Positions 1 through 20,850 of a stretch of 20,850 nucleotides of DNA are shown one piece after another. The first letter of the stretch is position 1; each line of letters begins with the position of its first letter. Both the position numbers and the translations under genes were made by a program. The notes below the pieces were generated by a model. The model did not search any database, was not told where the DNA came from, and saw only the letters and a list, made by a program, of their open reading frames with translations. The DNA is from a virus. The DNA lies in IMG/VR virus record IMGVR_UViG_3300028767_000098, positions 1 to 20,850 of that record, one strand, 5' to 3'.

Positions 1-853
1 CAAAAGACCTATCAACCATAGCTTGCACATATGTAGGGTGGTTGTGTGCTTTCGGCCTTTGGCCAAGTGCAGAGGAAAAAAATATTCGCTTGACTTGTTC
101 GCGGTTATCAGTATAGAACGCGAGAATATTAATTAATGCTAAATCAGCTTCCGATTGACTGGTGTAGTAGTTGTGCCACATTCCGCTATAGAGTTCCAAA
201 AACTTTTGACCATTAGAAGCCGCGAAAGCAGTTTCACAAATTTCATTATCGGAATTGATTTCCGGTTGACTTTCAAAAATTGAAGCCATGTTAGAAGCAA
301 AGGCCGGTTTAGGTGGAGCGAGGTATGCCCACAAGGAATTAGCCCATTCATTGATGTCGACAATAGGCAAATTCTTAATTACATCGCCCGTCATGGTCAT
401 GTATCGGCCTGAAGAATAGACTTCAACAGCGTCCCGCTTCCTTCCTGTGGGCACACTTCCGCGCCCGATGATATGCAACCCCTGGCCGGATGGCGAACGC
501 TCAATGTATGTCTGAAACGCTTCATACATTTCAATTTGACGTTTAATAATTTCATCGGCATTTGGGTATTTTGGTTGCCCTTCCTGATCTAAGCCGAAAG
601 GATTATCTAAGTCGATAAATACAAATGGGTCATTTTCGGTTAGCACAAAACCGATGCCAGAATATCCACCACGGTTAAAAATTTGGCAAGCATACGCAAA
701 ACTAGACCAGTTTGAAGAATCGGTTACACTGGCTTTGTATCCATTATTAGGATTGTAAGGGATTTTAGTGGTTCGGCCATCCTCCAATGTTTCCAGCTTG
801 AAAAGAACCCACTGATTATATGTTTTCATTTCTTCTGGAATTTGGTTAATCAC
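1..853 (-). CDS. Primase-polymerase (AEP/PrimPol type), partial at its C-terminus
   Basis: The reading frame is open from a GTG at 853 to the left edge, 284 codons, so the C-terminal part lies outside the window. Visible archaeo-eukaryotic primase motifs are an acidic pair FIDLDN (D81, D83), SPSGQGLHI (residues 120-128, with H127) and a third acidic site in AVEVYSSGRYMTMTGD (E144). After residue 200 a helical segment rich in W, Y and R (around YTSQSEADLALIN) resembles the linker that precedes a helicase domain in phage and plasmid primase-helicases. The likely role is making primers at the phage replication fork. The GTG start is chosen because AAAGGTG lies just upstream and the GTG overlaps the stop of the helix-turn-helix gene (TAGTG), which suggests translational coupling. 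Family membership is inferred from motifs. A downstream helicase domain is expected but not seen. Confidence 0.78.
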   Translation of the reverse strand, partial: MINQIPEEMKTYNQWVLFKLETLEDGRTTKIPYNPNNGYKASVTDSSNWSSFAYACQIFNRGGYSGIGFVLTENDPFVFIDLDNPFGLDQEGQPKYPNADEIIKRQIEMYEAFQTYIERSPSGQGLHIIGRGSVPTGRKRDAVEVYSSGRYMTMTGDVIKNLPIVDINEWANSLWAYLAPPKPAFASNMASIFESQPEINSDNEICETAFAASNGQKFLELYSGMWHNYYTSQSEADLALINILAFYTDNREQVKRIFFSSALGQRPKAHNHPTYVQAMVDRSF

Positions 854-1050
854 TATTTCACCTTTGATTCTAGGTATGCTTTCAGCGTCTCAATGCGATT
901 AACTGAAGGGTCCGAAATTCTACCCTTGACAAGCGCATTCAACCATGCTGAGGGAATAGTGGTTTCTTCGCAAATGAGATTCAAAGTCAACCAAACCGGC
1001 CTGTTTTTCAAAGATAAGACAGTGGTATCGCGCAAAGTCGTTAGAATCAT
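853..1050 (-). CDS. Small helix-turn-helix DNA-binding protein, likely phage regulator
   Basis: A 65-residue protein. The start at 1050 is chosen because TTGAGG lies six bases before the ATG; the longer frame upstream crosses the promoter region and has no such site. Residues 26-60 read like a helix-turn-helix unit: a variable helix, then IPSAWLNALVKGRISDPSVN, which matches the common pattern of a recognition helix followed by 'G+I.(D/N)P' and an amphipathic final helix ending ETLKAYL. It is the first gene of the leftward unit and faces the rightward replication genes across a region with palindromes. It is therefore a good candidate for a repressor or switch protein acting on that region. 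The exact family is not recognised, and the target site is an inference from position. Confidence 0.6.
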   Translation of the reverse strand: MILTTLRDTTVLSLKNRPVWLTLNLICEETTIPSAWLNALVKGRISDPSVNRIETLKAYLESKVK

Positions 1051-1076
1051 AGGAACCTCAAAAAGTGAACATCTTG

Positions 1077-1105
1077 AGAATAGGTCAAAAATATTTCTTT
1101 GGCAA
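1077..1105 (-). promoter_or_regulatory. Putative leftward sigma70-type promoter for the HTH/primase genes
   Basis: On the minus strand TTGCCA (1100-1105) is followed after 17 bases by TATTCT (1077-1082), matching five of six and four of six consensus bases. The start codon of the HTH gene is 27 bases further on. One copy of the AAATATTTC repeat lies inside the spacer, so binding there could control this promoter. Confidence 0.5.
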
Positions 1106-1138
1106 GGGCGAAATATTTCCTTGACACAAGTTTTGTCA
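1089..1138. promoter_or_regulatory. Putative operator cluster between divergent promoters
   Basis: The nonamer AAATATTTC occurs at 1089-1097 and again at 1111-1119, exactly 22 bases apart, which places both copies on nearly the same face of the helix. The second copy is part of the perfect palindrome GAAATATTTC (1110-1119), flanked by CAAGG (1104-1108) and CCTTG (1119-1123). A further inverted repeat, TGACA (1122-1126) and TGTCA (1134-1138), overlaps the rightward -35 box. One copy lies in the leftward promoter spacer and the other abuts the rightward -35. This arrangement fits a switch site for the neighbouring HTH protein. Binding is inferred from layout only. Confidence 0.45.
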
Positions 1139-1148
1139 GAACTAGAAT
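1121..1148 (+). promoter_or_regulatory. Putative rightward sigma70-type promoter for the replication operon
   Basis: A perfect -35 box TTGACA (1121-1126) is followed after 16 bases by TAGAAT (1143-1148), five of six matches to TATAAT. The expected transcript start is near 1155, giving a leader of about 80 bases before the ATG at 1235. This is the clearest promoter in the window and stands upstream of the whole rightward gene block. Confidence 0.6.
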
Positions 1149-1157
1149 GATTGACAT

Positions 1158-1209
1158 GGGAGCGATGCGAACCCAGACTAGCAACCCAACGGGAGCCGCG
1201 AGCGAACCC
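1158..1209. repeat. Paired direct repeats in the leader of the replication operon
   Basis: GGGAGC occurs at 1158-1163 and 1191-1196, and GCGAACCC at 1167-1174 and 1202-1209, so a two-part unit is repeated with 33-35 base spacing. The segment is GC-rich compared with its surroundings and lies in the expected 5' leader of the rightward transcript, before the ATG at 1235. It could be a protein-binding site or a small iteron-like pair. I found no convincing cloverleaf or terminator fold in it. Confidence 0.4.
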
Positions 1210-1234
1210 CAACCATACACCTTTTGGAGATACG

Positions 1235-1759
1235 ATGGAGAATCGCCAATATCAAACCCTGGCAAATAAATCGCCAATCCGATTTAACGGCGAAAGGGTT
1301 GTTTTGGAACAGTTTTTGAATAGTGTAGCTGGGGCGATTCGTGCCTTGAATATTTTGAATGACTGCAAGCGCGAATTACTTTGCGAAAATGGTTACACTG
1401 GTGCAAGGCCGCCGAAATTTTTCAACAACTGTTCTAGCCTTCCAGCACAGTTTGAAGATTACAAGCAAGGCGAAAAAGTTATTTCGGCAATCCTGAATTT
1501 GGCGATTGAGTCTAAAGGTTTGTTGGAAAAACTTGAACAGACTTTGAAAAATCGAAATTATGTTTCGGTTTGCGGTATGCATGATAACATTGCTAATATG
1601 TTTCAGCATCAAGCTAACATTGCCGAATTTCTGGGAACTGATTTTGATGAAATGATGCAATCCAATATTGGCAAATTGAAAAACATGAATCCCGAAAGGT
1701 TCAATCCTGGCATTGACGAACAGGTTGAAATTGCCATGTTTAAAAGTGAGCAAGAATGA
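1235..1759 (+). CDS. MazG-fold-like protein, possibly inactive
   Basis: 174 residues. The start at 1235 is chosen over an upstream frame extension because GGAGA stands four bases before the ATG. The C-terminal half is mostly helical and aligns by eye with phage MazG-type nucleotide pyrophosphohydrolases: AIESKGLLEKL (residues 90-100) where the family has a glutamate pair, then HDNIANMFQ (116-124), then EFLGTDFDEMMQSNIGKL and MNPERF, which match the usual 'LG.(D/S)..E....N..KL..R.P..F' ending. If the alignment is right, the metal-binding glutamate/aspartate positions are largely lost (ESKG in place of ExxGE; DNxxN in place of EExxD), so it may not be catalytic. It is the first gene of the rightward block. 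The N-terminal 75 residues match nothing I know. The fold assignment is tentative. Confidence 0.45.
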   Translation: MENRQYQTLANKSPIRFNGERVVLEQFLNSVAGAIRALNILNDCKRELLCENGYTGARPPKFFNNCSSLPAQFEDYKQGEKVISAILNLAIESKGLLEKLEQTLKNRNYVSVCGMHDNIANMFQHQANIAEFLGTDFDEMMQSNIGKLKNMNPERFNPGIDEQVEIAMFKSEQE

Positions 1760-2151
1760 ACCCACAAGATAGGGATGAAAAAATACAAAAATGGAACAAT
1801 CTTTGCGCGGCTTTGGCAATTGTCAAAGAACAGGAAATGAAGCTTCGGAAAGAAATTGTTGAGTATGTAACCGAAGGAAAGCATAGCTGCAAAATGAATT
1901 TGGGTTTTGGGTATGGCTTAGATGCCGAAAATACCTTGAATTATAAAATTGATGATCCTGAAGACAAACTTTTAAGTTTGGTTGAATGGCTCAAGCAAAA
2001 TAACGAACCTGAAGTATTCAAGCAAAAATGGGAATTCAACGAATCAAATTACAAAAAGGTTTCACCAACAGTTAAGGCTTATGTTGACGAATTGATTAGC
2101 TGTAAACCCGGTTCTCCAAAATTAACTTTCATTCAACCAAAGGAAGGCTAA
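1756..2151 (+). CDS. Conserved phage protein with N-terminal coiled helix (DUF7173-like)
   Basis: 131 residues. Its ATG overlaps the stop of the preceding gene (ATGA), so the two are probably translated together. Residues 10-35 form a charged helix (ALAIVKEQEMKLRKEIVEYV), followed by a basic, glycine-containing segment with Cys45 and a C-terminal part that pairs WEFNESNYKKV with a final strand PGSPKLTFIQP. This layout resembles a small phage protein family often found next to Sak4 and SSB-like genes (annotated DUF7173, recalled from memory). The function is not known; the neighbourhood suggests a role in DNA replication or recombination. Confidence 0.6.
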   Translation: MNPQDRDEKIQKWNNLCAALAIVKEQEMKLRKEIVEYVTEGKHSCKMNLGFGYGLDAENTLNYKIDDPEDKLLSLVEWLKQNNEPEVFKQKWEFNESNYKKVSPTVKAYVDELISCKPGSPKLTFIQPKEG

Positions 2152-2153
2152 AA

Positions 2154-2258
2154 ATGAAATTATCTGAACTTTTAGGTTGCATTATGTTTTTTATTTGGCT
2201 TAGTTTTTGGAGTTTTGTTGCTTGGGTTGCTTGGCATTTCATTTCTAAGTTCTGGTGA
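2154..2258 (+). CDS. 34-residue single-span membrane protein
   Basis: A short frame encoding MKLSELLGC, then a strongly hydrophobic, aromatic stretch rich in Phe and Trp (about residues 10-30), ending with a short basic tail (HFISKFW). It has a good ribosome binding site (AGGAAGG, seven bases upstream), fills the gap between its neighbours, and ends four bases before the next ATG, all of which support a real gene. It would sit in the inner membrane as one helix. A holin-like role is possible but nothing supports it directly. The placement between replication genes is unusual for a lysis protein. Confidence 0.55.
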   Translation: MKLSELLGCIMFFIWLSFWSFVAWVAWHFISKFW

Positions 2259-2261
2259 TAA

Positions 2262-2945
2262 ATGGTAATTAAACTTAAAAATACCGCCGAATTAGCCAAA
2301 GCAGACTCTATTAAGCTGCTTATCTATGGCGAAGCTGGCGCGGGAAAAACGCGACTCATCAGCACAGCGCCTAGACCTGTTATTTTTTCAGCCGAATCAG
2401 GCTTGTTAAGTTTGCGTAAATTTCAATTGCCATACGTTATTATTTCAACTTATAAGGAACTTGAGGAATGTTTCTTGTGGGCATCCAAATCAGCCGAAAT
2501 GAAGCAATTCGACACAATTTGTCTTGACAGTTTGAGCGAAATTGCCGAAGTTATTTTAACCAATTTAAAAACTTTGCATAAGGATCCTAGAAAAGCCTAT
2601 GGCGAAATTTCGGATAAGATGCTAGAATTAATTCGCGGCTTTCGTGATATTCCTGGGAAGCATGTTTATTTTTCAGCCAAGCAAGAAAGGGTAGCCGATG
2701 CCGCAACGGGCGCTTTGCTTTTTGGCCCCATGATGCCGGGAAAGGTTTTGCCGGTAGCCTTGCCTTATTTCTTTGATGAAATTTTTCAATTGAGCGTTTT
2801 CACTGACCCGGCAACCCAAACAAAAACTAGAGCTTTGCGAACCGATAAAGATAATCAATATCAAGCAAAAGATAGATCCGGCAATCTTGACATTTGGGAA
2901 CCGGCTGACTTAGGTTTGATTTTTAACAAAATCGCGAAAGGATAG
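2262..2945 (+). CDS. Sak4-like RecA-fold ATPase (recombination/annealing)
   Basis: 227 residues. The Walker A motif GEAGAGKT is at residues 23-30 and a Walker B strand FDTICLDSL is at 83-91 with D89. The core spacing, the sensor-like FSAKQER segment after a short helix, and the C-terminal DIWEPADLGLIFNKI resemble the single-domain Sak4 family of phage RecA-like ATPases. These act with the phage single-strand binding protein in homologous recombination and replication. Here the SSB-like gene lies about 400 bases downstream and a RecB-like exonuclease follows, completing the usual trio. The ribosome binding site is weak, but the preceding small gene ends four bases upstream, so coupling is likely. 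Confident as a P-loop ATPase; Sak4 is the best family guess. Confidence 0.75.
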   Translation: MVIKLKNTAELAKADSIKLLIYGEAGAGKTRLISTAPRPVIFSAESGLLSLRKFQLPYVIISTYKELEECFLWASKSAEMKQFDTICLDSLSEIAEVILTNLKTLHKDPRKAYGEISDKMLELIRGFRDIPGKHVYFSAKQERVADAATGALLFGPMMPGKVLPVALPYFFDEIFQLSVFTDPATQTKTRALRTDKDNQYQAKDRSGNLDIWEPADLGLIFNKIAKG

Positions 2946-3182: not shown

Positions 3183-3270
3183 GCCCCCATGGCGAAATTG
3201 GTCAGACGCTTTGGATTTAAAATCCAACGATAGTAATATCATCCCGGTTCGAGTCCGGGTGGGGGCACCA
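3183..3270 (+). tRNA. tRNA-Leu, anticodon UAA
   Basis: The 88-base sequence folds as a class II tRNA. The acceptor stem GCCCCCA pairs with TGGGGGC and is followed by an encoded ACCA. The D stem is GCG/CGC. The anticodon stem TTGGA/TCCAA encloses the loop TTTAAAA with anticodon TAA. The long variable arm is GATA/TATC. The T arm is CCCGG-TTCGAGT-CCGGG. It reads the UUA leucine codon, which this AT-rich phage uses often. It lies between the replication genes and the SSB-like gene on the same strand. All stems are perfect, so it is expected to be functional. Confidence 0.95.
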
Positions 3271-3291: not shown

Positions 3292-3315
3292 AATCGCTTG
3301 CCCACAAAAGCGATT
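3292..3315 (+). other. Hairpin before the SSB-like gene with TGCCCACA in its loop
   Basis: AATCGCTT (3292-3299) and AAGCGATT (3308-3315) form a perfect 8-bp stem around the loop GCCCACAA, which carries most of one copy of the repeated octamer TGCCCACA. It is followed by TAAATTTT, too weak a T run for a confident terminator. It stands 20 bases before the SSB-like start codon, in the leader between the tRNA and that gene. It could protect the tRNA 3' end, act as a leaky attenuator, or bind a protein. Confidence 0.45.
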
Positions 3316-3335: not shown

Positions 3336-3941
3336 ATGGCCCTTCTGCCTTCTGCTTTTAACGCTTTCTTGGTTGACCCTGCGGCTTCTGTCGGCCAGCT
3401 TCCGGTATGTCCCGAAGGCTTGCCGGTTGTGATTACTGCCAGCGAATTCAAGGCCGCTAAATCCGGCGGTAATAACTACTACGTTGAATTGTCGCTTCAG
3501 GTTATTGATGGGCCTCACAAGGGCGAAACCGGGCCTTTCCGTCTTAACCTGGGAAATGACAATGAAACTGCGGTTCGCATTGCCAATCAGCAGCTTTCTG
3601 CCATCTGTCACGCAACCAGCCAAATGAATATCAGCGATACGCAACAGCTTCACAACATTCCGTTTGTCGTTACTACTATCGGCAAGGAAGTTACTAACGA
3701 CAAGGGCGAAAAGTTCACCAGTAGCGAAGTCAAGCGCATTCTGAATATTCGCGGTGAAGCGCCTAGCAAGGCCGCTGCCCCTGGTGCTGCTCCTGCCCCT
3801 GCCTTTGCCGCTCCCGTTGCCATCGTTGCTCCTGCCGCTCCTGCGGCCCCGGCCTGGGCTCCCGCTAGCCCTGCGGCCCCGGCCTTTGTTCCTCCTGCGG
3901 CTTCCGCTCCTGCCGGTGCGCCTCCCTGGGCCGCTAAGTAA
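3336..3941 (+). CDS. DUF669-type single-stranded DNA-binding protein
   Basis: 201 residues. The start follows TGAGGTT at ideal distance. Residues 25-140 match the pattern of phage DUF669 proteins, which serve as SSB analogues: a strand segment VVITASEFKAAKSGGNNYY, then VIDGPHKGETGPFRLNL, a helix VRIANQQLSAIC, then IPFVVTTIGKE and a final strand. From about residue 143 the protein becomes a low-complexity tail of Ala and Pro, ending PPWAAK, and lacks the acidic tip typical of bacterial SSB. Codon use is markedly more GC-rich than neighbouring genes, which fits high expression, and a strong terminator follows. It likely coats single-stranded DNA for the Sak4-like ATPase, exonuclease and polymerase of this block. 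Confidence 0.72.
   Translation: MALLPSAFNAFLVDPAASVGQLPVCPEGLPVVITASEFKAAKSGGNNYYVELSLQVIDGPHKGETGPFRLNLGNDNETAVRIANQQLSAICHATSQMNISDTQQLHNIPFVVTTIGKEVTNDKGEKFTSSEVKRILNIRGEAPSKAAAPGAAPAPAFAAPVAIVAPAAPAAPAWAPASPAAPAFVPPAASAPAGAPPWAAK
3840..3885 (+). repeat. Direct 16-bp repeat inside the SSB-like C-terminal tail
   Basis: CCTGCGGCCCCGGCCT occurs at 3840-3855 and identically at 3870-3885, a 30-base period. Each copy codes for part of the Pro-Ala-Ala-Pro-Ala tail. The identity at all codon positions suggests recent duplication or slippage, so tail length may vary among related phages. Confidence 0.75.
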
Positions 3942-4008: not shown

Positions 4009-4839
4009 ATGAACAGTGATAAAAAGCAAATAGCCGATGAAATTAGAGCCAAAATTGATGCTCATTGTCAAGCTATTTACAATGAAGAATTTAGAACGCA
4101 TTTAGGCGCTTCCTTGATTGGCGATAAATGCTTACGTAAGCTTTGGTTTGGCTTTCGTTGGGTTCAAAAGGCCGCTCATACAGGCCGAAAATTGCGCTTG
4201 TTTAATACCGGCAATTGTGAAGAAACTAGAATTATTGCTTGGTTGAATGGAGCGGGTTATGAAGTTAAAAATGTTGATACTAACACTGGAAAACAATTCA
4301 AGATTGTTGACTGTGCCGGTCATTTTGGCGGGTCTATTGATGGCGTTGTTAATGTTGATGCGCTAGGCTTGTGCTTGTTTGAAGCCAAAAGCAACAAAAC
4401 AGGTTCGGAATTCAAAGCCTTTTTCGATGAAGGAATGAGGCTTAACAAGCCTAGACATTGGGCGCAAATTTGCACTTATGGAATGAAGTTGAACATTAAA
4501 AATTGCTTGTATATCTGCAAGAATAAAGACAATGATGATTTGTATATTGAACCCGTTGAACTTGATTTTGAACATGGAAAGGAAATGATTGAAAAGGCTA
4601 GCTACATTATTGGATGCCAGGACAAGCCTAGCCGTATAAGTGAAACACCAACTTACTTTGAATGTAAAATGTGTGATTATACTGATATTTGCCACAGGGG
4701 AAAACAGGCAGACAATAATTGTCGCTCATGTAAATTTGCAAGCGCCGTTGAAGATGCACAATGGAAGTGTGAAAAATATGGTATAATTCCTAAGGAAGAA
4801 ATTGGTAAGCCTAAACCTTGCTGGGAAGGGATAATCTAA
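4009..4839 (+). CDS. PD-(D/E)XK exonuclease, Cas4/RecB-like
   Basis: 276 residues. The nuclease signature is clear: GGSIDGVV with D111, then LFEAKS with E125 and K127, then HWAQICTYG with Q153 and Y157 (the QxxxY motif of RecB-like nucleases). The C-terminal region has clustered cysteines (C219, C222, C228, C238, C241, C254), arranged like the zinc or iron-sulfur cluster of Cas4/AddB-type enzymes. There is no CRISPR array or other cas gene, so a phage recombination or replication exonuclease is the sensible reading, partnered with the Sak4-like ATPase and the SSB-like protein. AAAGG precedes the start. It begins 12 bases after a strong terminator, so its expression should be lower than that of the SSB-like gene. 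The nuclease class is well supported; the metal cofactor of the cysteines is inferred. Confidence 0.8.
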   Translation: MNSDKKQIADEIRAKIDAHCQAIYNEEFRTHLGASLIGDKCLRKLWFGFRWVQKAAHTGRKLRLFNTGNCEETRIIAWLNGAGYEVKNVDTNTGKQFKIVDCAGHFGGSIDGVVNVDALGLCLFEAKSNKTGSEFKAFFDEGMRLNKPRHWAQICTYGMKLNIKNCLYICKNKDNDDLYIEPVELDFEHGKEMIEKASYIIGCQDKPSRISETPTYFECKMCDYTDICHRGKQADNNCRSCKFASAVEDAQWKCEKYGIIPKEEIGKPKPCWEGII

Positions 4840-4840: not shown

Positions 4841-5476
4841 ATGGGATGGCCATCTGAAGAAAAGATTGAAAAATTTGAAAACCCAAACAATTTTCCAACA
4901 ACCCAGAATGCAGCCATTGCTATAGGCTCCAGATTCTATATAAACGGAAATTCTTGCAAACGTGGGCATAAATCCGAAAGATATACCAACGGCGGTTGTT
5001 GTGTAGCTTGTAGTATTTTAGCTAAGAAAAGCAGTGTTACCCATAGACAGCGTTCCATTGAAAACCAAAAACTTATGCAAATTGCAGTTTCCAATAATAA
5101 AACTACATATATTCCAGATACACCTTGCAAATACGGCCATAGTTTGCGGTTTACAACGTCTAATAATTGCGTTATTTGTGATGAAATTGGGCGTGACAAA
5201 TACAGAATTACACAAAGATATTGCAGAATAAAAAGAGAATATGGTTTAACAAAAATTGAATATTTGGCTATGGTTGAAAAACAAAAAAGTTGTTGTTTTC
5301 TTTGTAATTCATATCACCAGGACCATTTTAAATTGCATGTTGATCATTGTCATGAAACCGGAAAGGTTCGAGGTTTGCTTTGCAATAAATGCAATCAAGG
5401 AATTGGTTTGTTTAATCATTCTCCAGAATTAATTAGAAAAGCGGCTGTTTATTGTGAGAAAGCCAACAATGAGTAA
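4841..5476 (+). CDS. Endonuclease VII-like HNH nuclease with two N-terminal zinc motifs
   Basis: 211 residues. The C-terminal part is typical of recombination endonuclease VII (T4 gp49 type): YGLTKIEYLAMVEKQ, then CFLC (C152, C155), HVDHCHETGKVRGLLC (D168, H169, C170, H171), and CNKCN (C181, C184, N185). The four cysteines bind zinc and the DHxH segment is the catalytic His-Me finger. Before it are two similar Cys/His units: CKRGH...CCVAC (from C39) and CKYGH...CVIC (from C96), apparently a tandem zinc-binding duplication. The protein is expected to cut branched DNA or Holliday junctions before packaging. GGAAGGGA precedes the start, and the gene overlaps the next by eight bases. A homing HNH endonuclease is the alternative, less likely given its integrated position. 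Confidence 0.82.
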   Translation: MGWPSEEKIEKFENPNNFPTTQNAAIAIGSRFYINGNSCKRGHKSERYTNGGCCVACSILAKKSSVTHRQRSIENQKLMQIAVSNNKTTYIPDTPCKYGHSLRFTTSNNCVICDEIGRDKYRITQRYCRIKREYGLTKIEYLAMVEKQKSCCFLCNSYHQDHFKLHVDHCHETGKVRGLLCNKCNQGIGLFNHSPELIRKAAVYCEKANNE

Positions 5477-7094
5477 TCCTTTATTGCGCTATTATCAAAA
5501 CGAATCTGTAGAATCAATTTTCAACTATTTTAATTCCGGTAAAGTAGGAAACCCTTTGCTTTGTTTACCAACCGGAACCGGAAAAAGTTTAGTAATTGCT
5601 GAATTTATAAAAACTGCTTTGCAACAATGGCCGAATCAAAGATTTATTATGCTTTGCCATGTAAAAGAAATTCTTTCTCAAAATTGCAATAAATTAAAAG
5701 CAATTTGGCCAAATGCTCCAATTGGCATGTATTCTGCCGGTTTAAACGAATACAATACCACCTTGCCTATTATTTTCGCTGGAATTGCTAGTGTTAATGC
5801 AAATCCTGAACAGTTTGGGCATAGAGATATAGCAATAGTTGATGAAGCGCATTGTATAAGTCAAAACGATTCAAGTATGTATCAAAAGACAATTGCAAAA
5901 TTAAAATTAATTAACCCTTATCTAAAGGTTATTGGCTTAACAGCTACGGCTTACCGTATGGGTCAAGGCATGATTACCGATGGTGGTTTGTTCACTGATA
6001 TTGCATATGATGTTACAGGAATGTCAGCCTTTAACCGGCTTATTGCTGAAGGTTTTATTGCTCCATTGATCCCAAAGCGAACTAGAACGGAATTAAATAC
6101 CGATTGTGTCAAAATGTCAAATGGTGATTTTCAACAGCATGATTTGCAAGCCGCTGTTGATATTGATGAAGTAACTTACTCTGCAATCAAAGAATTAGTT
6201 GAATGTGGCTATGAAAGAAATTGTGGTCTAGTTTTTGCAACAGGGGTTGAACACTGTGAACATTTAACAACGGCTATTCAATCTTTTGGGGAAACCGCAA
6301 CATGCGTTCATAGCAAGATGCCCACAAAGGAACGGGATGAACGCCTAGCAGCTTTTAAAGCCGGAATATTTAAATATATTGTGAGCAACGGCATTCTTAC
6401 TACTGGTTTTGATCATCCTCCCATTGACATTATCGGAATGTTACGCCCCACAATGTCTACCGCACTTTGGGTTCAATGCCTGGGGCGCGGAACCCGGCCT
6501 TATACTTGGCTGAATGAACAGCAATACATAAAGGGTTTCAACTATGCAAAAGAAAACTGTTTGGTATTGGATTTTGCAAAGAATACCCCTCGTTTGGGTC
6601 CAATTAACGATCCGGTTAAGCCAAGAAAAAAAGGTCAAAAAACAGGCGATGCGCCGATTCGCATTTGCCCCGAATGCGGTATTTATAACCACGCTTCATC
6701 AAGATTTTGTTGTGAATGCAACGCCATATTTCAAATTGCAGTTAAAATCTTTGGTCAGGCAGGAACAGAAGAATTAATCAAGTCTGATTTGCCACAAATT
6801 GAAACTTTTTCGGTAATTCGTGCTGTTTATCACAAGCACCTGAAACCCGGTAGCCCTGTCATGATCCAAGCCTCATACTATACAGGGGTGAAAACCTTCA
6901 GCGAATTTGTCTGTTTTGAGCATCCCGGTTATCCAGGTAGGAAGGCCGCAGATTGGTGGAAGCAAAGATCAAATGAACCTGTTCCCGCTACGGTTGATGA
7001 AGCCTTAAGCCGAATTTCACAATTGAAAACCCCAGTTAAAATTAGGGTGCAAGTAAACAAAAAGTATCCTGAGGTTTTGAGTCATGAATACTAG
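5469..7094 (+). CDS. SF2 DNA helicase, RadD-like
   Basis: 541 residues from the ATG at 5469, preferred to a GTG at 5454 because GAGAAAG lies upstream of it. Superfamily 2 motifs appear in order: LRYYQ (Q motif), PTGTGKS (residues 34-40), DEAH (125-128), TAT (158-160), ILTTGFDHP in the second RecA domain and QCLGRGTRPY (motif VI). Around residue 400 a CPEC...CCEC zinc ribbon follows, as in the RadD/YejH helicases; the last 120 residues are an additional domain. The role is ATP-driven unwinding or strand remodelling in replication or recombination, in line with neighbouring junction nuclease and exonuclease genes. It overlaps the genes on either side by a few bases, typical of a tight operon. 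Confident as SF2; RadD-like is from the zinc ribbon. Confidence 0.82.
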   Translation: MSNPLLRYYQNESVESIFNYFNSGKVGNPLLCLPTGTGKSLVIAEFIKTALQQWPNQRFIMLCHVKEILSQNCNKLKAIWPNAPIGMYSAGLNEYNTTLPIIFAGIASVNANPEQFGHRDIAIVDEAHCISQNDSSMYQKTIAKLKLINPYLKVIGLTATAYRMGQGMITDGGLFTDIAYDVTGMSAFNRLIAEGFIAPLIPKRTRTELNTDCVKMSNGDFQQHDLQAAVDIDEVTYSAIKELVECGYERNCGLVFATGVEHCEHLTTAIQSFGETATCVHSKMPTKERDERLAAFKAGIFKYIVSNGILTTGFDHPPIDIIGMLRPTMSTALWVQCLGRGTRPYTWLNEQQYIKGFNYAKENCLVLDFAKNTPRLGPINDPVKPRKKGQKTGDAPIRICPECGIYNHASSRFCCECNAIFQIAVKIFGQAGTEELIKSDLPQIETFSVIRAVYHKHLKPGSPVMIQASYYTGVKTFSEFVCFEHPGYPGRKAADWWKQRSNEPVPATVDEALSRISQLKTPVKIRVQVNKKYPEVLSHEY

Positions 7095-7307: not shown

Positions 7308-8258
7308 ATGGCCAGAAAATCAAAATCACTCCATTCTAGCGGCCTGTTAAATGCGCTTTCCTTTGTGGGCATGAACGGCGCTGAATACTGCCAGATTGGC
7401 CACAATTGGGTTACGTCTATCACTGATAATATTTGCATGGGTTTTGCTATTGAAGAAACTCTAGCTTGTCAAGCAAACATTAAAGCTTTGACTCATTCTT
7501 TAACCAGGGCAAAAGATCAAGTAACTATTACGCAATTAGATATTGACAAATTGCATGTTTCTTCAAACGGTTTGGAAGTTTATGTAAACTGTGAAGCAGA
7601 GGTTAAACATGTTGAACCTGATAAAAGATTTTGCGCGATTGATAGCAGATTTACTAAATGCTTGGATATTTTGCATTCTATTGTATCAGCCCATGGGGAT
7701 CATATTTCTGTTAAATCCGTATTGTGCTACGGTTCATCCTGCTTTGCAACTAATCGGCATATTCTAATTGAGTTTTGGAATGGTATTGATTTGCCATATT
7801 GCAAACTATCAAAAAAGTTTGTTGATTTAATTTTGAAGTCAAAGAAAGAAGTTGAATATTTTGGTTATTCTATTAGTAGTGTTACAGTTTATTTCAAAGA
7901 TGGATCTTGGATTATGGGACGCCAAGAAAAAGGTGATTGGATCAATCCGTTTGAAATATTAAATGTGCCTACAGAAATGCAACCACTTACCGCAAACTTT
8001 AAAACTTCGCTCAAGGCTGTTCTAGGGTTCGCTGGGGCTACCACCGTCACCTGGGGCGCTGGAAGGCTCCAGAGCCATGCCGGTGAACGGGAAGGGGCAA
8101 TTTCAGCCATTGCTGACCTAGCCGAAGGTGGCACTTATGGAACAAAGGAAATGAAATTCTTGTTAGATAATGGAAATGAATTTTGTATTGACGCAAACAA
8201 AGTTGTTAGGTTTTTTGGTTCAAACATTCGTGGCGCAATTAGCTCAAGGATTGGTTAA
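7308..8258 (+). CDS. Putative DNA polymerase sliding clamp-like protein
   Basis: 316 residues, preceded by AGGGGAAATA, a strong ribosome binding site. The sequence alternates beta strands and helices in the manner of beta-clamp/PCNA folds: FAIEETLACQANIKALTHSL, then TITQLDIDKLHVSSNGLEVYVNC, and in the second part SSCFATNRHILIEF with LPYCKLSKKFVDLIL and YFKDGSWIMGRQ. This recalls the clamp pattern 'TDG......lp..v.ip...v..l', ending with DGSWIMG. The position directly before the family B polymerase strengthens the idea. Residues 225-275 (MQPLTANFKTSLKAVLGFAG onward) are encoded by an unusually GC-rich stretch (about 8020-8130). No motif is decisive, so structure prediction is needed to separate a clamp from another replication accessory protein. 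Confidence 0.48.
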   Translation: MARKSKSLHSSGLLNALSFVGMNGAEYCQIGHNWVTSITDNICMGFAIEETLACQANIKALTHSLTRAKDQVTITQLDIDKLHVSSNGLEVYVNCEAEVKHVEPDKRFCAIDSRFTKCLDILHSIVSAHGDHISVKSVLCYGSSCFATNRHILIEFWNGIDLPYCKLSKKFVDLILKSKKEVEYFGYSISSVTVYFKDGSWIMGRQEKGDWINPFEILNVPTEMQPLTANFKTSLKAVLGFAGATTVTWGAGRLQSHAGEREGAISAIADLAEGGTYGTKEMKFLLDNGNEFCIDANKVVRFFGSNIRGAISSRIG

Positions 8259-8438
8259 ATGTCAAACTTATATGATTGGCCAGAAGACTCTTAATTAGAA
8301 AACGGCAATTATCACAATGTTTGTCTTTATTGTAGAATTGTTTTTGTTGGATACAAACGGCGAATTGTTTGCAAAAAGTGTGCTACTGAAATAGAAAATA
8401 AAAGAATTGAAACTCAAAAACATGCATGGGATATCTAA
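8259..8438 (+). pseudogene. Small zinc-ribbon gene interrupted by an in-frame TAA
   Basis: Starting at an ATG directly after the clamp-like stop, one frame reads MSNLYDWPEDS, then TAA at 8292-8294, then LENGNYHNVCLYCR with a further CKKC, ending at a stop that overlaps the polymerase start (TAATG). The 59 codons form one coherent small protein with a Cys4 ribbon (CLYC and CKKC). The D..ENGNY..VC..C pattern is one I associate with tiny phage zinc proteins. No start codon lies in frame after the TAA, so the downstream part cannot be made alone. Either this is a recent nonsense mutation, a sequencing error, or stop-codon readthrough. TAA acts as a normal stop elsewhere in the window, so general recoding is excluded. 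Both junctions are perfectly packed, which argues that the gene was intact recently. Confidence 0.6.
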
Positions 8439-10378
8439 TGTTCTTTAACGAACCCGAAAAATTGCCAAAAGGCAAAAAGCAACCCGTTGCCGTTGATCGG
8501 TCGTTTCCTACTCCCATTTTCAAACCTTTGGATTTATACAATGATGCTGAATTGGTTATTGATTCTCATTCTACTTTCATTTTTGACGTTGAGTGTTACT
8601 CTAATTATTTTTTGGCTATGTTCACAAATTTTAGAACAGGGAAAATTGTTTACTTTGAAATGTCACCAAATTCAACAATTGATTATAAAAAATTGGAATG
8701 GGTTTTGTGGAATTTTCTTTTGGTTGGTTTCAATTCCAGCAATTACGATTTGCCTATGCTTTTTTTATGCCTTAAGGGTTTGAGTTGCCAAGAATTAAAA
8801 AGGGTAAGTGACCGAATTATCAATGAGGAATTGCGGCCTAGACAAATTGAGCAAGAATTCAAGGTTATAGTGCCCACAAAGATAAATCATATTGATCTTA
8901 TTGAAGTTGCTCCATTAAAAGCCAGCCTAAAGACGTATGCGGGAAGAATGCATTGTAAAAAGATGCAGGATTTGCCTTATAATCCCGCAATGCCATTAAC
9001 CCAGGAACAAGCAAATATTTTATTGCATTATTGCATAAATGATCTAGAGAATACTATTTTGTTGTTCATTGAACTGAAGGAACAAATTAAGCTTCGATAT
9101 GATATGACTGAACAATACGGGATAGACCTACGCTCAAAAAGTGATGCTCAAATTGCAGAGCATGTTATTGCAAGTGAGGTTATGAAGATTAATGGCAATT
9201 GGCCAAGACGCCCTATCATTCTGGAAGGGCAAAGCTACCGCTATGCGGCCCCGGCTTTCCTGGCCTATGCCACGCCAGCCATGCAAGCCGTTCTAGACCG
9301 GGTTCTAGCTACTGAGTTTGTTGTAGGTGCATCCGGCGCTGTCCTCATGCCTGAAAGTCTAGAATCGCTGTCTGTGGGCATTGGCAATGGTATTTATCGC
9401 ATGGGGATTGGCGGTTTGCATTCCAGTGAAGAAAAGACTATGCATAAAGCCGATGAAGAATATCTATTGATTGATAGAGATGTTGCCAGCTATTACCCCA
9501 GCATTATCATTAATAACAATCTTTTTCCAAAACAAATGGGCAAGGCTTTTATTCAAGTATATTCAACCATTGTTGAAAGGCGTTTAAAAGCCAAAGCCGC
9601 TGGGGATAAGGTTAATGCAGATTCATTAAAAATTGTTATCAATGGAAGTTTTGGTAAATTGGGTTCTAAATATAGTTGTCTTTATTCTCCTGATCTAATG
9701 CTGCAAGTTACCTTGACTGGCCAGCTTGCTTTATTGATGCTTATTGAAAGAATTGAACTAGCTGGAATTTCCATTGTTTCAGCCAATACCGATGGAATTA
9801 TTATCAAATGTCCTAGGGCTAGATATGAAGAATTGAATCAGATTATAAAGCAATGGGAACAGGTAACAGCATTTTATACTGAAGAAACCAAATATAAAGC
9901 AGTATATAGTCGTGATGTTAATAACTATATTGCAATTAAGGAAGATGGCACGGCTAAGGTTAAGGGTTGCTATTCTGAAAAAGGTTCCGCTTTAAATAGC
10001 CGATTGAGCAAGAATCCAGAATCTTTAATTTGCGCCGATGCTGTAACTAAACTTTTGGTTGAATGCATTCCAATTGAACAAACCATAACGGAAAGCCAGG
10101 ATATAACCCGGTTTGTTTGTGTGCGAAATGTCAAAGGCGGTGCCCACAAGAATGCTAAATATTTAGGAAAAGTGGTTCGCTGGATTTATGCAAAAGGTGA
10201 AACCGGAACAATTAATTATGTTTTAACTAACAATATTGTTCCCAAAAGTGAAGGCGCTAGGCCGTTGATGGACCTAGCGCCGGTTGAAGATTTAAATTTT
10301 GATTACTATATCAATGAAGCAAATGAAATGCTTTATGACTTGGGTTATTACAAACCTAAGCAAATTGGTTTGTTTTAG
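8438..10378 (+). CDS. Family B DNA polymerase with 3'-5' exonuclease domain
   Basis: 646 residues from the ATG at 8438; an ATG 12 bases earlier lacks a ribosome binding site, while 8438 follows GGGA and overlaps the preceding stop. The exonuclease site is intact: FDVE (D50, E52), FNSSNYD (D104) and YCIND (Y198, D202). Polymerase motifs are DRDVASYYPS with D348 (motif A), KIVINGSFG with K398 (motif B), and ANTDG with D452 (motif C). Motif C reads NTDG where the canonical form is DTDS; the catalytic second aspartate is kept. At about 650 residues it is a compact phage polymerase without a protein-priming signature that I can see. It replicates the phage genome with the adjacent clamp-like, helicase and primase proteins. 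Confidence 0.9.
   Translation: MFFNEPEKLPKGKKQPVAVDRSFPTPIFKPLDLYNDAELVIDSHSTFIFDVECYSNYFLAMFTNFRTGKIVYFEMSPNSTIDYKKLEWVLWNFLLVGFNSSNYDLPMLFLCLKGLSCQELKRVSDRIINEELRPRQIEQEFKVIVPTKINHIDLIEVAPLKASLKTYAGRMHCKKMQDLPYNPAMPLTQEQANILLHYCINDLENTILLFIELKEQIKLRYDMTEQYGIDLRSKSDAQIAEHVIASEVMKINGNWPRRPIILEGQSYRYAAPAFLAYATPAMQAVLDRVLATEFVVGASGAVLMPESLESLSVGIGNGIYRMGIGGLHSSEEKTMHKADEEYLLIDRDVASYYPSIIINNNLFPKQMGKAFIQVYSTIVERRLKAKAAGDKVNADSLKIVINGSFGKLGSKYSCLYSPDLMLQVTLTGQLALLMLIERIELAGISIVSANTDGIIIKCPRARYEELNQIIKQWEQVTAFYTEETKYKAVYSRDVNNYIAIKEDGTAKVKGCYSEKGSALNSRLSKNPESLICADAVTKLLVECIPIEQTITESQDITRFVCVRNVKGGAHKNAKYLGKVVRWIYAKGETGTINYVLTNNIVPKSEGARPLMDLAPVEDLNFDYYINEANEMLYDLGYYKPKQIGLF
10350..10376 (+). terminator. 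Weak terminator at the end of the polymerase gene
   Basis: ACAAACC (10350-10356) pairs with GGTTTGT (10367-10373) around a 10-base loop, followed by TTT before the stop codon. It is inside the coding sequence. It is the only candidate to stop rightward transcripts before they run into the convergent tail genes. The stem is AT-rich and short. Confidence 0.35.
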
Positions 10379-14572: not shown

Positions 14573-14918
14573 TATAAAACCTCACATTGCGAAAACCAAT
14601 CATTACCGTTTCAAGATACGTCCATTCTACCCCATTTTGAGCCAAGTGCAGAATTTTGCCATCAAGCCATATGCCCACATGGGAAGCGCCCTGGTTGGCT
14701 TGAAACAGGGCCAAGCAAGGGCTAACCGGCGCTAGGATGCGTTCAAACTGGCCTAGCCTGTGGGCATCCATCACCCGTAGACTTCGGCCTGTCTTAGCCC
14801 ATGTTAAAGCCTCTGAAATGTCTTGATTATTTAATTCTTTCCATACTTCACAAACAAAATGCGCGCAATTATATTTGGCATCGTTATAAACTCTATCAAA
14901 AAATCTATCAAGATTCAT
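14547..14918 (-). CDS. NlpC/P60-type tail-tip cysteine peptidase
   Basis: 123 residues. The catalytic Cys is in KYNCAHFVCEVW (C18), the His in ASHVGIWLDGKIL (H80), and a third polar residue is probably H91 in ILHL. This is the usual NlpC/P60 order in a minimal-size domain. In lambda-like tails this gene (gpK counterpart) lies between the DUF1833-type/gpL position and the J protein; the enzyme opens peptidoglycan during DNA entry. The start overlaps the preceding stop (ATGA). The middle of the gene (about 14640-14790) is strikingly GC-rich compared with either end and contains two inverted copies of TGCCCACA enclosing foldable sequence. Confidence 0.78.
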   Translation of the reverse strand: MNLDRFFDRVYNDAKYNCAHFVCEVWKELNNQDISEALTWAKTGRSLRVMDAHRLGQFERILAPVSPCLALFQANQGASHVGIWLDGKILHLAQNGVEWTYLETVMIGFRNVRFYNVKKNYNC

Positions 14919-15938: not shown

Positions 15939-18900
15939 TTACCGCCTTCTAACAATGTTTGTACTTTGGCTTAATGATTTTGAAGTTTTGGAATTAGGAT
16001 TGCCGATTTCAGAAGCTACCAGACTTGGAACCCTCTTTTCAATGGCTTGTTCGGCTTCATCCTTTGCAATGATTCTATAACGGTTTTCGTCAATCTGTTC
16101 AACTGCAAAAGTTTTAGAAGTTCCGTAGTTTTCGATTTTGATCGAAACAGAATTGCCCACAGAAGCGCCACGGTTCATAGCTTCCAGCATAGGCCGATTC
16201 CGGGCCGTGGCTGGGGCTGAGACGACGAATTCACGCCCATGGACCACTCCAGCCACTTGTGAGGTTCCCCCATCACCTGTATAGCCTCCAGCCTCATACC
16301 CTGGCATCTTGGTTGACATAATGGAAGCGATGTTTGCAGCCATGGCCACGCCAGCGGCAATCGCCAAAGCCGTTCCAACAATCGGCCCCAGCTTTTGCGC
16401 TTCACTGATAGCCAAAAATCCGTTAACGGTAGCTTGAGCAACAGCAGCCGCTTTACCGATTTCAAAAAGTTCCCTGTTTTTGGAATTTTGCAATGAGGAC
16501 ATATTGCCGAAAAATTGGTCAGCCTGTTGAAACTGTTTTTCGTGTTCCTTGATCCAAGCAACAGATTTAGCTTGTTCATATTGCTTTGTAGTGATTACGT
16601 TAGTTTTGGCTAAAGTTTCCAAATGCTTATAAAACAAATCCCATTTCTTAGTTTCGGCATCTAAGGCAATTTGGGTTCCATCAAACATATCCCCAAACAT
16701 AGTCATAAGGCCGGCAGATTTGTCAGCACCTTTTAAAATCTCATTATTCAAAGCTTGCAATTTGGTATTAAAATCAACAACAGCGCCACCAGTAGCAGCA
16801 TAAATATTATTTTGTTCCTGATTCAAAGCGTTCTTTTTAATTAAGTTATCAATCTCCATCTTGTATAAAAGAATCTGCACTTCATCCAACGGAATGCCCT
16901 GATTGTAGGCATCATTTTTCAATTGCATAAGCCGGGTTTGCGCTTCCTGTTCTCTGCCGACATAATTGAGTAAAGTGCTTTCGTCGCTCAACTGTTTGTT
17001 ATATTGGAACAAAGGTTCCGTTAAGTTAATCATAGCAATACGAGCAAGATTAATTTGCTTGGTTGCTTCTTCTTCACTGATCTTTTTCTTATCAAGTAAT
17101 TGAGTAGTTGCGGCAATGGTGTTTAAATAATCCCGCATTGGAGCAATGGAAGATTCAAAAATTCTATCCCGTTCTCCAGAAACTTTCTTTTCAGTTTCAA
17201 TAGCGGTAATTTTATTTAAAATAGAATCATGTTCCTGTTTGCTTAATTTAATAGAAGCAGAATTTTTACCGTTCTTTTTATCAGCTAATTGAATTTCAAT
17301 TTCGGTCATTTTGTTATAAATTGACCGGCTAGGCTCTAAAATTTGAAGTGAATTTTGTTCTTTGTTTAATTCGTCATTGATTTTCTTAAGTTTCATTGCG
17401 CGACTTTCGGCCAAAGGATCAACCGGCGGTTTTGAAGTGTCATCGCTTGCTTGGCGTAAATAGCTTTTGCCATGGGAAACCAAAGGCTTAGTAGGCTCAT
17501 TTTTCTTTGCTTCCAATTCAGCAAGCTTAATTTTCGCTTGTTCTAAGCCTTCTAAAAATTTATCCGTAGCGCCTTTTGCGCCTAGCGCATTCTTTCCCCA
17601 AACTGTAAAAAAGTTATCATCGGAAGCCAAGTTTGCAGTTTTACCAACTAGCGTAGCAATCCCGCCAGCCAATTCCCTAATAATGTCTGAAGCCATTGCA
17701 GCGGTAAAACCCAAACCTCTAATCAAATGTTCAAGCGCATTTAAAGAGTCTTTGGTCTTATCTTTACTTCCATCTAATAAAAATATACTGTTTGCTAAAT
17801 CACCAATAGCCGTAGCAGTAACAATGGTTGTTTCGCCAAGACTAAAAATTTCATATTTATTATTTTTAATAGAGTCTGCAATATTAATAAGCTTAGCAGC
17901 AAACCCGGAAAAACTTCCAGTTGTTTTTTCAAATTCTCCTGCCAATTGAATTAAATCATTTTTTAGAATAACAACAGCCTGATTAACTGTAGCCGTTGAC
18001 CTTGCAAATTTATCATCAATTTTCATATTGGTGAAAGCGTCAAGCATAACCTTTCCGGTTAACTTGCCTTGCTTGGAAAGGTTCATTAATTCGCCTTTAG
18101 GAACCCCTAAAGAGTCAGCTAACGCTTGCATCAAGATTGGAGCATTCCGCATTAAGGTTCGGAATTCATCGGCCTGTAAGTTGTTTCTGTTGAAAGCCTG
18201 GGATAACTGAAGCAAACTTTGCGCGGCTTCAATGGTGTTAGCGCCACCTAAAGTTAAAGACTTGCTGATATTTTCAGTCATCTTTAAAGTCTGTTCCTGC
18301 GAGGCACCTAGCGGCTTCAACGCCATATCGTAACGCTGAAAAGCCGTTGCCAAATCTTCAACTGGAACCCTAGCGCGTCTTGCGGATTCAAACAGCCTGT
18401 TAGTTAATTCTTCCGTTTGCAATTCGCTATCAGAAACAACCTTTAATTTATTCTGAAGTTCTAAATACGAGTTACCTAAACCCATAATAGCTTTTGTTCC
18501 AACAGCAGCAACGCCAGCAACCATAGCCAACATCATAAAATGGCGCAAAGAACTAAAACCCAACTGATTTCCATGTTCGGTAGTTTTATTTACTTCATTT
18601 TGTGCACCTTTTAATTTTAAAGCAGACATAGCAGCTTTATCGCTTGCAATTGAAACATTTTTCAAACTAATTGCCGTTTGATTTTGCGCTTGAATAACCT
18701 TTTCATTGCTGATTAAAACATTGTTATTAGCAACCTTCAAAGCTTCGGTAGCGATTGCAGCGTTAATGGTTGCAATTTCTAAATTCGTTGCTGACAAAGT
18801 GGCTTCATTTTGTCCAACGGCTAAAGCTTCGGATTCAATAGCGCCTTGCCGCATTGAGTTACCAAGCGCCTCAATAGCAGCCAGGGCTGACATTTGGGCC

Positions 18901-19109: not shown

Positions 19110-19111
19110 AT

Positions 19112-19546
19112 TCACCCCAACTTCATTTTAAACTTTTTAACTTCAACTCTGCCCACAATAACAGCCCGTTCGACAAATCCCGCAGGTTGCTGTTGTGAAG
19201 ATCCATTATTCAATTCTCTAATATAAGGCGCGGTGTTTACTAAAAATATAGACTGGCCAACAATTTTATTTTTTAAAACATTATTCATATCAACTACGGT
19301 TGCTTTTGCGCTAGGCCCATAGGTTGAACCTTTGTGGCCAAGGAAAAACGGCAAACGCATTGAAACATTGGGGTTTTCTAATGAGATTTGCCAGTTTGAA
19401 ATAGCGTTGGAAGTGTCTACAGGGGTAACATACGCCAAATTGCGCCCTGTGGCCATAGCAACCCCAACAGCACACCGGCTACCCTCAGAAGCCAGGATAG
19501 CCGGTAGCGCCTTCATTCTGTTTGCTAGGTCAATCAGGGTTCCCAT
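19112..19546 (-). CDS. HK97 gp10-like tail completion/terminator protein
   Basis: 144 residues from the ATG at 19546, chosen over an upstream ATG at 19594 because AAGGGG lies seven bases before it. Features of the gp10 family are a starting helix LIDLANRMKALPAILASEG, YVTPVDTSNAISNWQ (the 'TPvdtG.A..nW' segment), and NTAPYIRELNNGSSQQQPAGFVERA near the end, where 'Y...L..GsS.Q.p.Gfv' is typical. Such proteins cap the tail tube or join it to the head. It overlaps the stop of the GT-type frame by 17 bases. It lies between the chaperones and the tape measure, rather than before the tail tube gene as is more common. Confidence 0.65.
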   Translation of the reverse strand: MGTLIDLANRMKALPAILASEGSRCAVGVAMATGRNLAYVTPVDTSNAISNWQISLENPNVSMRLPFFLGHKGSTYGPSAKATVVDMNNVLKNKIVGQSIFLVNTAPYIRELNNGSSQQQPAGFVERAVIVGRVEVKKFKMKLG

Positions 19547-19847
19547 GGCTGTTCCCCTTGTGCTGATTTGACCATTTAGTATAGCATTCGTCAAGCCTTG
19601 TTATGAATATATTTAATGCTTCTGTTTGGTAACTATCAAATTGGAACCTGTCAGCATAGTGCATTTTTACAGACCATGGAACATAGCCCACTTGATTACG
19701 GTCATTTTGCAATTGCCAAAAGGCTTCATAGTAAAGAGTTAAGCCGGTTCCCAATATTGGTTTGTTTAAAATTCTATCAGGAACCGGCTGACCCATTTGT
19801 TTAGCTTGTCTTGTGAGGTTCTTTTCCCGATTCGGGGGCATTTCCAA
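19530..19847 (-). CDS. Tail assembly chaperone, T-type part reached by -1 frameshift
   Basis: 105 residues in the -1 frame relative to the preceding chaperone. A stand-alone start would be a TTG or the ATG two codons later, neither with a convincing ribosome binding site at the right distance (GAGG at 19862-19865 is far off). The frame is open right back to the slippery sequence A AAA AAC at 19871-19877, so a -1 shift adds eight residues plus this frame to the G-type protein and gives a fusion of about 252 residues. It contains TLYYEAFWQLQNDRNQVGYVPWSVKMHYADRF-like spacing (segment starts near residue 37), as in second-half tail chaperones, which bind the tape measure. Function by analogy to lambda gpGT. 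Confidence 0.72.
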   Translation of the reverse strand: MEMPPNREKNLTRQAKQMGQPVPDRILNKPILGTGLTLYYEAFWQLQNDRNQVGYVPWSVKMHYADRFQFDSYQTEALNIFITRLDECYTKWSNQHKGNSHGNPD

Positions 19848-19867
19848 ATCGTATAAAAGAACCTCAA

Positions 19868-20287
19868 TTAGTTTTTTTCATCGGCCTTGAGATTGGCTTC
19901 AAGAAAATTGTCTTTATCGGAAGCCTTAATATTCAAAGTGCTAAACAATTCGGGAAGTTCGCTGAAAAAGGAAATAGCATTATCATAGGAATAAGGAATA
20001 GTTTTACCGTCCATACCCTGAATATTTTCCCAACCCTTAAGATTAGCAGTTACGAAAATATCAATATTAAGCTTGCTTGCATCGGCTTCAGAAAGCAGAC
20101 CTTCATCAATTTCTTTCTTGAAAGGCCGGGTTTTGGCTTCAAAAGTCTTAAGCCAAAGGGGATTAGACCGGCCAGCCCTGGCAATAATGAAAGCCGGAAT
20201 AGAGCCATCATCGTTAGCCTTAAACTTGATCTTAATTCCGTTTTCTTCACAATTCTTATTAGTTTTGAACTGGGAATAAATAGACAT
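19868..20287 (-). CDS. Tail assembly chaperone, G-type
   Basis: 139 residues. It lies directly after the tail tube gene, as the G-type chaperone does in lambda-like tails. The sequence has an N-terminal KFKANDDGSIPAFIIAR segment, KTRPFKKEIDEG, and a C-terminal helix ending with SDKDNFLEANLKADEKN. The last codons GAA AAA AAC contain the frameshift heptamer, so a fraction of ribosomes should continue into the next frame. The ribosome binding site AAAAGGA is somewhat far from the ATG (about 10 bases). A terminator stands between it and the tail tube gene, which would lower chaperone expression relative to the structural protein. It acts in the cytoplasm by coating the tape measure during assembly and is absent from virions in known systems. 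Confidence 0.72.
   Translation of the reverse strand: MSIYSQFKTNKNCEENGIKIKFKANDDGSIPAFIIARAGRSNPLWLKTFEAKTRPFKKEIDEGLLSEADASKLNIDIFVTANLKGWENIQGMDGKTIPYSYDNAISFFSELPELFSTLNIKASDKDNFLEANLKADEKN
19871..19877 (-). other. Programmed -1 frameshift site A AAA AAC
   Basis: On the minus strand the codons GAA AAA AAC TAA place the heptamer A AAA AAC exactly in the X XXY YYZ phase, one codon before the stop. After a -1 slip the frame continues CTA ATT GAG GTT and joins the 105-codon frame without a stop. CAAGG about eight bases upstream could act as a stimulatory Shine-Dalgarno-like element. Confidence 0.88.
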
Positions 20288-20301
20288 TGGGTCTAATCCT
20301 T

Positions 20302-20332
20302 TTAAAAACCCCTAGGACCATTCCCAGGGGTT
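20302..20332 (-). terminator. Rho-independent terminator after the tail tube gene
   Basis: On the minus strand AACCCCTGGGA and TCCTAGGGGTT form an 11-bp stem with one G-T pair and a four-base loop, followed by TTTTTAAA. It lies 11 bases beyond the tail tube stop and 15 bases before the chaperone ATG, so it separates abundant tube mRNA from downstream tail genes, with partial read-through needed. Confidence 0.85.
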
Positions 20333-20342
20333 GATAGAGCAA

Positions 20343-20850
20343 TTATACAGGCATTGCCGAATTAGGCAAGTAACTAAAGAAAGTCATCAAAAGCGTATGA
20401 CCGGCAACGCTTTCATTAGCGTTCATATCAATGGGAATAGTAATAGCGGCATCCTTTTCAACCTTAAGCCTACCGTTGCCTAAAGACATAGAAGGAATGT
20501 CAATAACAGTTCCCGCATTCTTGTGGGCAAGAATGACATTAAAGCCAACATCGGAATTGTTGCGAACAGCGTTAACAGCCCCAACGGTAGAGAAATAAGC
20601 AGTAAGGGAACCGCTAATTATAAAATCACCAGCGGTAGCGTCAAAAGCGCCAAGGGTTCCCAACGCCTTAGTAGGCTTAACACCATTGTTAATAACCAGT
20701 TTGGCATCGTTGACATAAGCAAACAAAGGCGAACCGTTCACATTAAGCGGATCAACAATGCTAAGCTTAATCCGATAAATATCAGAAGACGTATTGAAAG
20801 CATTTTCAGCAACGGCAGGAATACGAGTTCCGGCCTTTACACCGGTAGCG
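20343..20850 (-). CDS. Major tail tube protein, N-terminus outside the window
   Basis: The open frame runs to the right edge, 169 codons visible, without a start; an internal GTG at 20741 is not a good start because the frame continues upstream with similar composition. The segment NGSPLFAYVNDAKLVINNGV, then ATAGDFIISGSLTAYFSTVGAVNAVRNN and a beta-rich ending resemble the tail tube proteins of siphoviruses that polymerise as hexameric rings. The next genes (chaperone pair, then tape measure) fit. The strong terminator right after it suits a highly expressed structural gene. The first part of the protein is missing here, so domain completeness cannot be judged. Confidence 0.75.
   Translation of the reverse strand, partial: ATGVKAGTRIPAVAENAFNTSSDIYRIKLSIVDPLNVNGSPLFAYVNDAKLVINNGVKPTKALGTLGAFDATAGDFIISGSLTAYFSTVGAVNAVRNNSDVGFNVILAHKNAGTVIDIPSMSLGNGRLKVEKDAAITIPIDMNANESVAGHTLLMTFFSYLPNSAMPV

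Follow-up and report, generated by a model that had tools for sequence, protein, structure and literature searches.

Positions 1 to 20,850 of the viral record IMGVR_UViG_3300028767_000098 (the window; about half of one siphophage genome) contain 14 exact copies of the octamer TGCCCACA, which we analyze here as candidate start sites of the primase encoded at the left end. A plus-strand replication module (Sak4, single-strand DNA binding protein (SSB), Cas4-type exonuclease, SF2 helicase, clamp, and DNA polymerase) meets a minus-strand tail module convergently at 10.37 kb. The genes referred to below are as follows.

2..853, minus strand: N-terminal part (284 amino acids) of an NrS-1-type AEP primase, truncated at the window end (PHROG 3022 DNA primase, 4e-74; Pfam NrS-1 HBD, 1e-8; PDB 6k9a, 3e-29)
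2262..2945, plus strand: Sak4-like annealing protein, which groups with the TRACCACA phages described below
3183-3270: tRNA-Leu (anticodon taa), inside the replication module and directly before the only intergenic TGCCCACA
3336..3941, plus strand: SSB
4009..4839, plus strand: Cas4-domain (RecB-like) exonuclease
4841-5476: recombination endonuclease VII-type gene (PF02945, 3e-20), an insertion that separates the Cas4 exonuclease gene from that of the helicase
5469..7094, plus strand: SF2 DNA helicase
7308..8258, plus strand: DNA polymerase processivity factor
8426..10378, plus strand: DNA polymerase (weak family B match)

The copies of TGCCCACA are located as follows.

Site 1, 326..333, plus strand: in the primase gene, template strand; predicted priming site
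Site 2, 446..453, minus strand: in the primase gene, coding strand
Site 3, 2476..2483, minus strand: in the Sak4 gene
Site 4, 3299..3306, plus strand: intergenic, between tRNA-Leu and the SSB gene
Site 5, 6319..6326, plus strand: in the helicase gene; position kept in phage Halfdan
Site 6, 7364..7371, minus strand: in the sliding-clamp gene
Site 7, 8871..8878, plus strand: in the DNA polymerase gene; position kept in Loki and SZL7
Site 8, 9373..9380, minus strand: in the DNA polymerase gene
Site 9, 10141..10148, plus strand: in the DNA polymerase gene
Site 10, 14672..14679, plus strand: in a minor tail gene
Site 11, 14759..14766, minus strand: in a minor tail gene
Site 12, 16154..16161, plus strand: in the tape measure gene
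Site 13, 19150..19157, plus strand: in a tail completion gene; position kept in Kmi2C
Site 14, 20522..20529, minus strand: in the tail tube gene

The initial annotation had reported these 14 copies, eight on the plus strand and six on the minus strand, and both the number and the positions are confirmed here. Dinucleotide shuffles (n=100) give a mean of 0.71 copies and a maximum of 3, and an order-3 Markov model predicts 0.36. In the octamer count that had been proposed as a check, TGCCCACA ranks first in the window and the other octamers are much less enriched. Thirteen of the sites are intragenic, on both coding and template strands and in frames 1 and 2, and synonymous-codon shuffling within genes (1000 trials) yields a mean of 0.78 copies (maximum 4) versus the 13 observed, indicating that the word is under selection as DNA rather than protein, as had been proposed from the mixture of strands and frames. 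The word is asymmetric, not palindromic, and strict, in that its 24 one-mismatch variants sum to 11 occurrences versus 9.9 expected, which is the chance level. An A follows nine of the 14 copies, and purines predominate over the next four positions, in agreement with the earlier description of the 3′ flank; no flank letter is fixed and the flanks are not repeated between sites.

The nearest named relatives by polymerase, at ~50% protein identity, are FtMidnight, Septimatrevirus 73, Lokivirus, Kmi2C, and PaMx25, and a search of viral contigs for relatives found only two polymerase fragments, both distant. Loss of the word in relatives had been raised as a possibility, and ten of them, from several host genera, were found to keep TGCCCACA as the first or near-first octamer where about one copy or less is expected in each: Halfdan (20 copies), phage 73 (19), PSV3 (18), Pfeifenkraut (18), FtMidnight (16), Loki (13), Kmi2C (12), RcTitan (17), R3 (26), and SZL7 (24). 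The enrichment extends across hosts and over GC contents of 39–56%, such that neither host nor base composition explains it. At homologous positions the word is kept at only 4 of 89 mapped window sites (0.45 expected by chance), suggesting that sites turn over and are re-created elsewhere while their number stays. Two oppositely oriented copies of TGCCCACA in Loki (9528-9559) make up the two arms of a hairpin that carries a terminator annotation.

Phages with primases ~31–36% identical to that of the window mostly have other top words (e.g. Greed with 36 copies of TAACCACA and PaMx25 with 33 of TGACCACA) that share the build T..CCAC|A with TGCCCACA. Loki and SZL7 are exceptions, in that their primases are equally distant and the word is still TGCCCACA, with the 3′ flank changed. 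Six further phages were picked by primase homology alone and then searched for TRACCACA, which is present in 25 to 57 copies in each, versus 0–5 per strand for a reversed-pattern control, and TAACCACA or TGACCACA is the top octamer in all six, as predicted. HdK1 and ART, chosen as polymerase relatives, have the same kind of primase and the same words as these TRACCACA phages. Across the word families CCAC is nearly invariant and the first three letters differ by lineage. Shewanella phage S0112 has the weaker words TTTCCACA (10 copies) and TATCCACA (8 copies), possibly a further family of the form T.TCCACA.

The spacing of the sites had been described as irregular, which is correct when the two strands are pooled but not when each is taken separately, as the per-strand gaps in the window are even, with coefficients of variation (CV) of 0.38 and 0.41 (P = 0.005 by permutation of strand labels). 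Averaged over 12 genomes, the per-strand CV is 0.40, versus 0.70 when strand labels are permuted (the lowest of 5000 permutations being 0.57) and 0.87 for uniform placement, and the plus strand of Halfdan reaches 0.17. Same-strand gaps in these 12 genomes have a median of 2.65 kb, and 0.7% are shorter than 500 bp versus 15% expected. Even per-strand spacing is individually significant in 17 of 20 genomes, distances between sites on opposite strands look random, and 59 other enriched words, used as a control, are not even (average CV 0.92). In the 95-kb genome of Achromobacter phage ART the sites are very uneven (CV >1.5), as if the system were used in only part of it.

The strand opposite the late genes has more copies of the word than the other strand in each of 12 genomes (199 vs 111), and blocks with reversed gene direction show an identical bias (55 vs 30), indicating that this bias follows replication rather than transcription. 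A primer started at the word would run against late transcription, as would lagging-strand primers if the fork runs with late transcription.

The base immediately after TGCCCAC in the ten TGCCCACA phages is A in 179 instances, G in 15, C in one, and T in none. In the TRACCACA group, TAACCAC or TGACCAC is followed by a pyrimidine 22 times versus 87 expected, although an enriched word may itself inflate the Markov expectation for sequences adjoining it, and the avoidance was hence compared with that of the other class's word and with control phages: TGCCCAC plus pyrimidine is not avoided in the TRACCACA group (47 vs 40 expected), and control phages avoid neither. Avoidance by each group of its own 7-mer before a pyrimidine would fit a purine-starting enzyme that is delayed at dead-end sites. 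Thymine is depleted at offsets 13–15 from the first base of the word (8, 3, and 9% vs 26%; 144 sites), more weakly in three held-out genomes and PaMx25 and not at all in Greed, so that this is no general rule. If the last A of the word is base 1 of a primer, these offsets are primer bases 7–9, which may lie at about the end of the 8-nt primer of this enzyme family, to go by the citation of pRN1 ORF904 in PMC8718748.

The window primase matches the solved NrS-1 primase (6k9a), and the AEP catalytic residues (NrS-1 D78, D80, and H115) and the SPS loop (108–110) are all conserved (D, D, S-P-S, H). A helix bundle domain follows the catalytic domain (PF22763, above the cut-off at 1e-8), in which the functional NrS-1 residue Y261 is kept and R249 and K251 differ; most word-bearing phages have the helix bundle loop LGxRxK, and DS11, LP-101, and 9NA have LxRxKW, like NrS-1. 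The C-terminal region, where a helicase domain would be expected, lies beyond the window, and the primases of relatives are full length (754–778 aa), three of them matching DUF3987 there. This kind of primase is present in 434 phage records. The NrS-1 enzyme recognizes template 5′-GTGG-3′ or 5′-TTTGGTTA-3′ and initiates at the base immediately upstream (PMC8718748). Read as template, TGCCCACA is 5′-T-GTGG-GCA-3′, and GTGG is present in all three template words (TGTGGGCA, TGTGGTTA, and TGTGGTCA). In NrS-1 itself the published TTTGGTTA site lies inside a tandem array, AGTGTAACC(CAA/AAA/ACA), at 17186-17217, and with 11 copies of AGTGTAAC in that genome it may belong to an iteron-like origin.

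We conclude that the phage's own NrS-1-type primase very probably recognizes TGCCCACA and starts primers there. The initial annotation had listed five roles without choosing among them, and the data favor that of primase initiation site over the other four because of the GTGG in the template word, the exchange of Sak4 without a change of word, the transcription-independent bias, and the per-strand evenness. Both the identity of the reader (the primase) and the role of the sites in lagging-strand priming are inferred. The enzyme, probably via its helix bundle domain, would read template 5′-GTGGGCA-3′ and begin opposite the T just upstream of the motif, such that the first primer base is the last A of TGCCCACA and the primer runs away from the word; the phage DNA polymerase (8426..10378) is proposed to extend it. 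Each strand would have its own set of sites ~2–4 kb apart and every lagging-strand template would offer regularly spaced start points, in which case Okazaki fragments should begin at fixed places. It also seems likely that the genomes of these phages encode an Okazaki map, in which a long exact primase site is selected for per-strand evenness, sites are re-created on turnover, half sites that would not start are purged, and more sites are kept on one lagging template.

Several observations weigh against these conclusions. The window is only half of the phage and its end cuts the primase gene; even spacing fails in Iggy and ART and is marginal in RcTitan; and no such word was found in Staphylococcus phage DS11, Listeria phage LP-101, or Salmonella phage 9NA, which have related primases. 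The genomes are mutually related and the 20 spacing tests are not fully independent, but the low conservation of sites between genomes indicates that the patterns are largely rebuilt despite kinship. NrS-1 recognition is loose (GTG), with initiation maybe up to several bases away (PMC8718748), and the NrS-1 genome is a weak positive control, with AACCAC the top hexamer but modest (31 vs 11) and unevenly spaced. The polymerase, helicase, and Cas4 track the word class no less well than the primase. We asked if the primase tracks the word better than the other replication genes, and only Sak4 could be excluded; as the window Sak4 groups with the TRACCACA phages, its gene has been exchanged while the word stayed the same, and Sak4 is not the reader. 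Attribution to the primase accordingly depends chiefly on what is known biochemically about the homologous NrS-1 enzyme.

The agreement of Cas4 and helicase with word class is also what would be seen if the word were a strand-specific signal for another replication or recombination protein, e.g. a Chi-like site with the SF2 helicase or the Cas4-type exonuclease as its reader. The asymmetry and strand bias of the word and the presence of a recombination module in all of these phages fit such a signal too, but it does not predict the independent evenness on each strand, the purine start and avoidance of pyrimidine half sites, or a GTGG core matching the proven motif of a homologous primase, and Sak4, a RecA-like partner, does not follow the word class; we regard this explanation as unlikely. 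Mycobacteriophages have dispersed, asymmetric repressor sites, and a small helix-turn-helix protein is encoded beside the primase in several relatives, such that a phage regulator might use the words as operators or in the manner of stoperators. This is very improbable given that 13 of the 14 sites are inside genes and not placed at promoters, that the strand bias is the same whichever direction local genes take, that the 8-mer is strict and non-palindromic, and that even spacing would be unexpected.

A fixed short word could also serve as a mark for DNA modification, packaging, or condensation, and packaging direction could cause a strand bias, but none of these accounts for the independent evenness on two strands, the rule on the start base, or the retention of the primase motif across word families, and there is little prospect of any of them being correct. 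The location of most sites within genes is consistent with an origin as a side effect of protein sequence, codon usage, or base composition, or with descent from a repeated element. There is next to no chance of this, as it is refuted by the synonymous codon shuffles (0.78 vs 13), and the same word is enriched over the whole GC range of the relatives, few homologous positions keep it, and its flanks are not repeated.

Start sites for the phage's own primase, as we favor, have parallels in several known systems. Escherichia coli Chi sites and mycobacteriophage stoperators are, like TGCCCACA, short, asymmetric, dispersed words with strand-dependent action; to our knowledge they have other readers, and neither has per-strand evenness or a GTGG-plus-start-base structure. 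The gp4 primase of phage T7 belongs to a different primase superfamily, the DnaG type, and we know of no genome-wide even grid of its sites. It is likewise phage-encoded, with a defined template motif (5′-(G/T)2GTC-3′), a purine start, and a lagging-strand role, and flanks modulate site use (PMC12839067), but the motif is short. The pRN1 ORF904 primase-polymerase similarly combines an AEP primase with a helix bundle domain and, according to the passages on it in PMC8718748, recognizes template 5′-GTG-3′, starts outside the motif, and makes a ~8-nt primer; in contrast, its three-letter motif occurs everywhere by chance and no dispersed, spaced 8-mer is described for it. Closest is the NrS-1 primase-polymerase, with homologous primase and helix bundle domains, GTGG in the template, and a start at the first base upstream; its reported template sites are 5′-TTTGGTTA-3′ and 5′-GTGG/GTGA-3′ (PMC8718748, PMC7102993), and the sister-phage word TGTGGTTA, the template form of TAACCACA, differs from TTTGGTTA by one letter (7 of 8 identical). 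However, only two copies of the NrS-1 8-nt site are reported, near the genome center and read as an origin, whereas the phages described here have 14 (in the window) to 57 in an even grid on each strand, and the NrS-1 enzyme doubles as the replicative polymerase whereas the window phage encodes a separate DNA polymerase.

Primase sites and the NrS-1 enzyme family are already known, and a long exact word used as a grid is undescribed as far as our searches show: no prior description of the words or of dispersed primase sites was found in the literature searched (open-license papers), and the paper describing the Loki genome says nothing of the word. Lagging-strand starts are usually taken to be semi-random, at short primase motifs, whereas this phage group seems to fix them in the sequence. 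If so, Okazaki positions could be read from the genome and tested directly in infected cells (laboratory hosts support several of these phages, e.g. E. coli MG1655 for Halfdan), the recognition code of the helix bundle could be inferred from the word families TGCCCACA, TAACCACA, and TGACCACA, and there may be primases with long, addressable start sites.

Two other features of the window were noted. A second enriched octamer, CCTAGCGC, is present in eight copies (at 4360, 10254, 10273, 13323, 14729, 17581, 18369, and 19308) versus 0.3–0.6 expected and is not a top word in the relatives examined. In the tail region, the protein encoded at 11174-12022 matches GDSL lipase/acylhydrolase weakly, under the Pfam cut-off, and is possibly a receptor-modifying tail enzyme.

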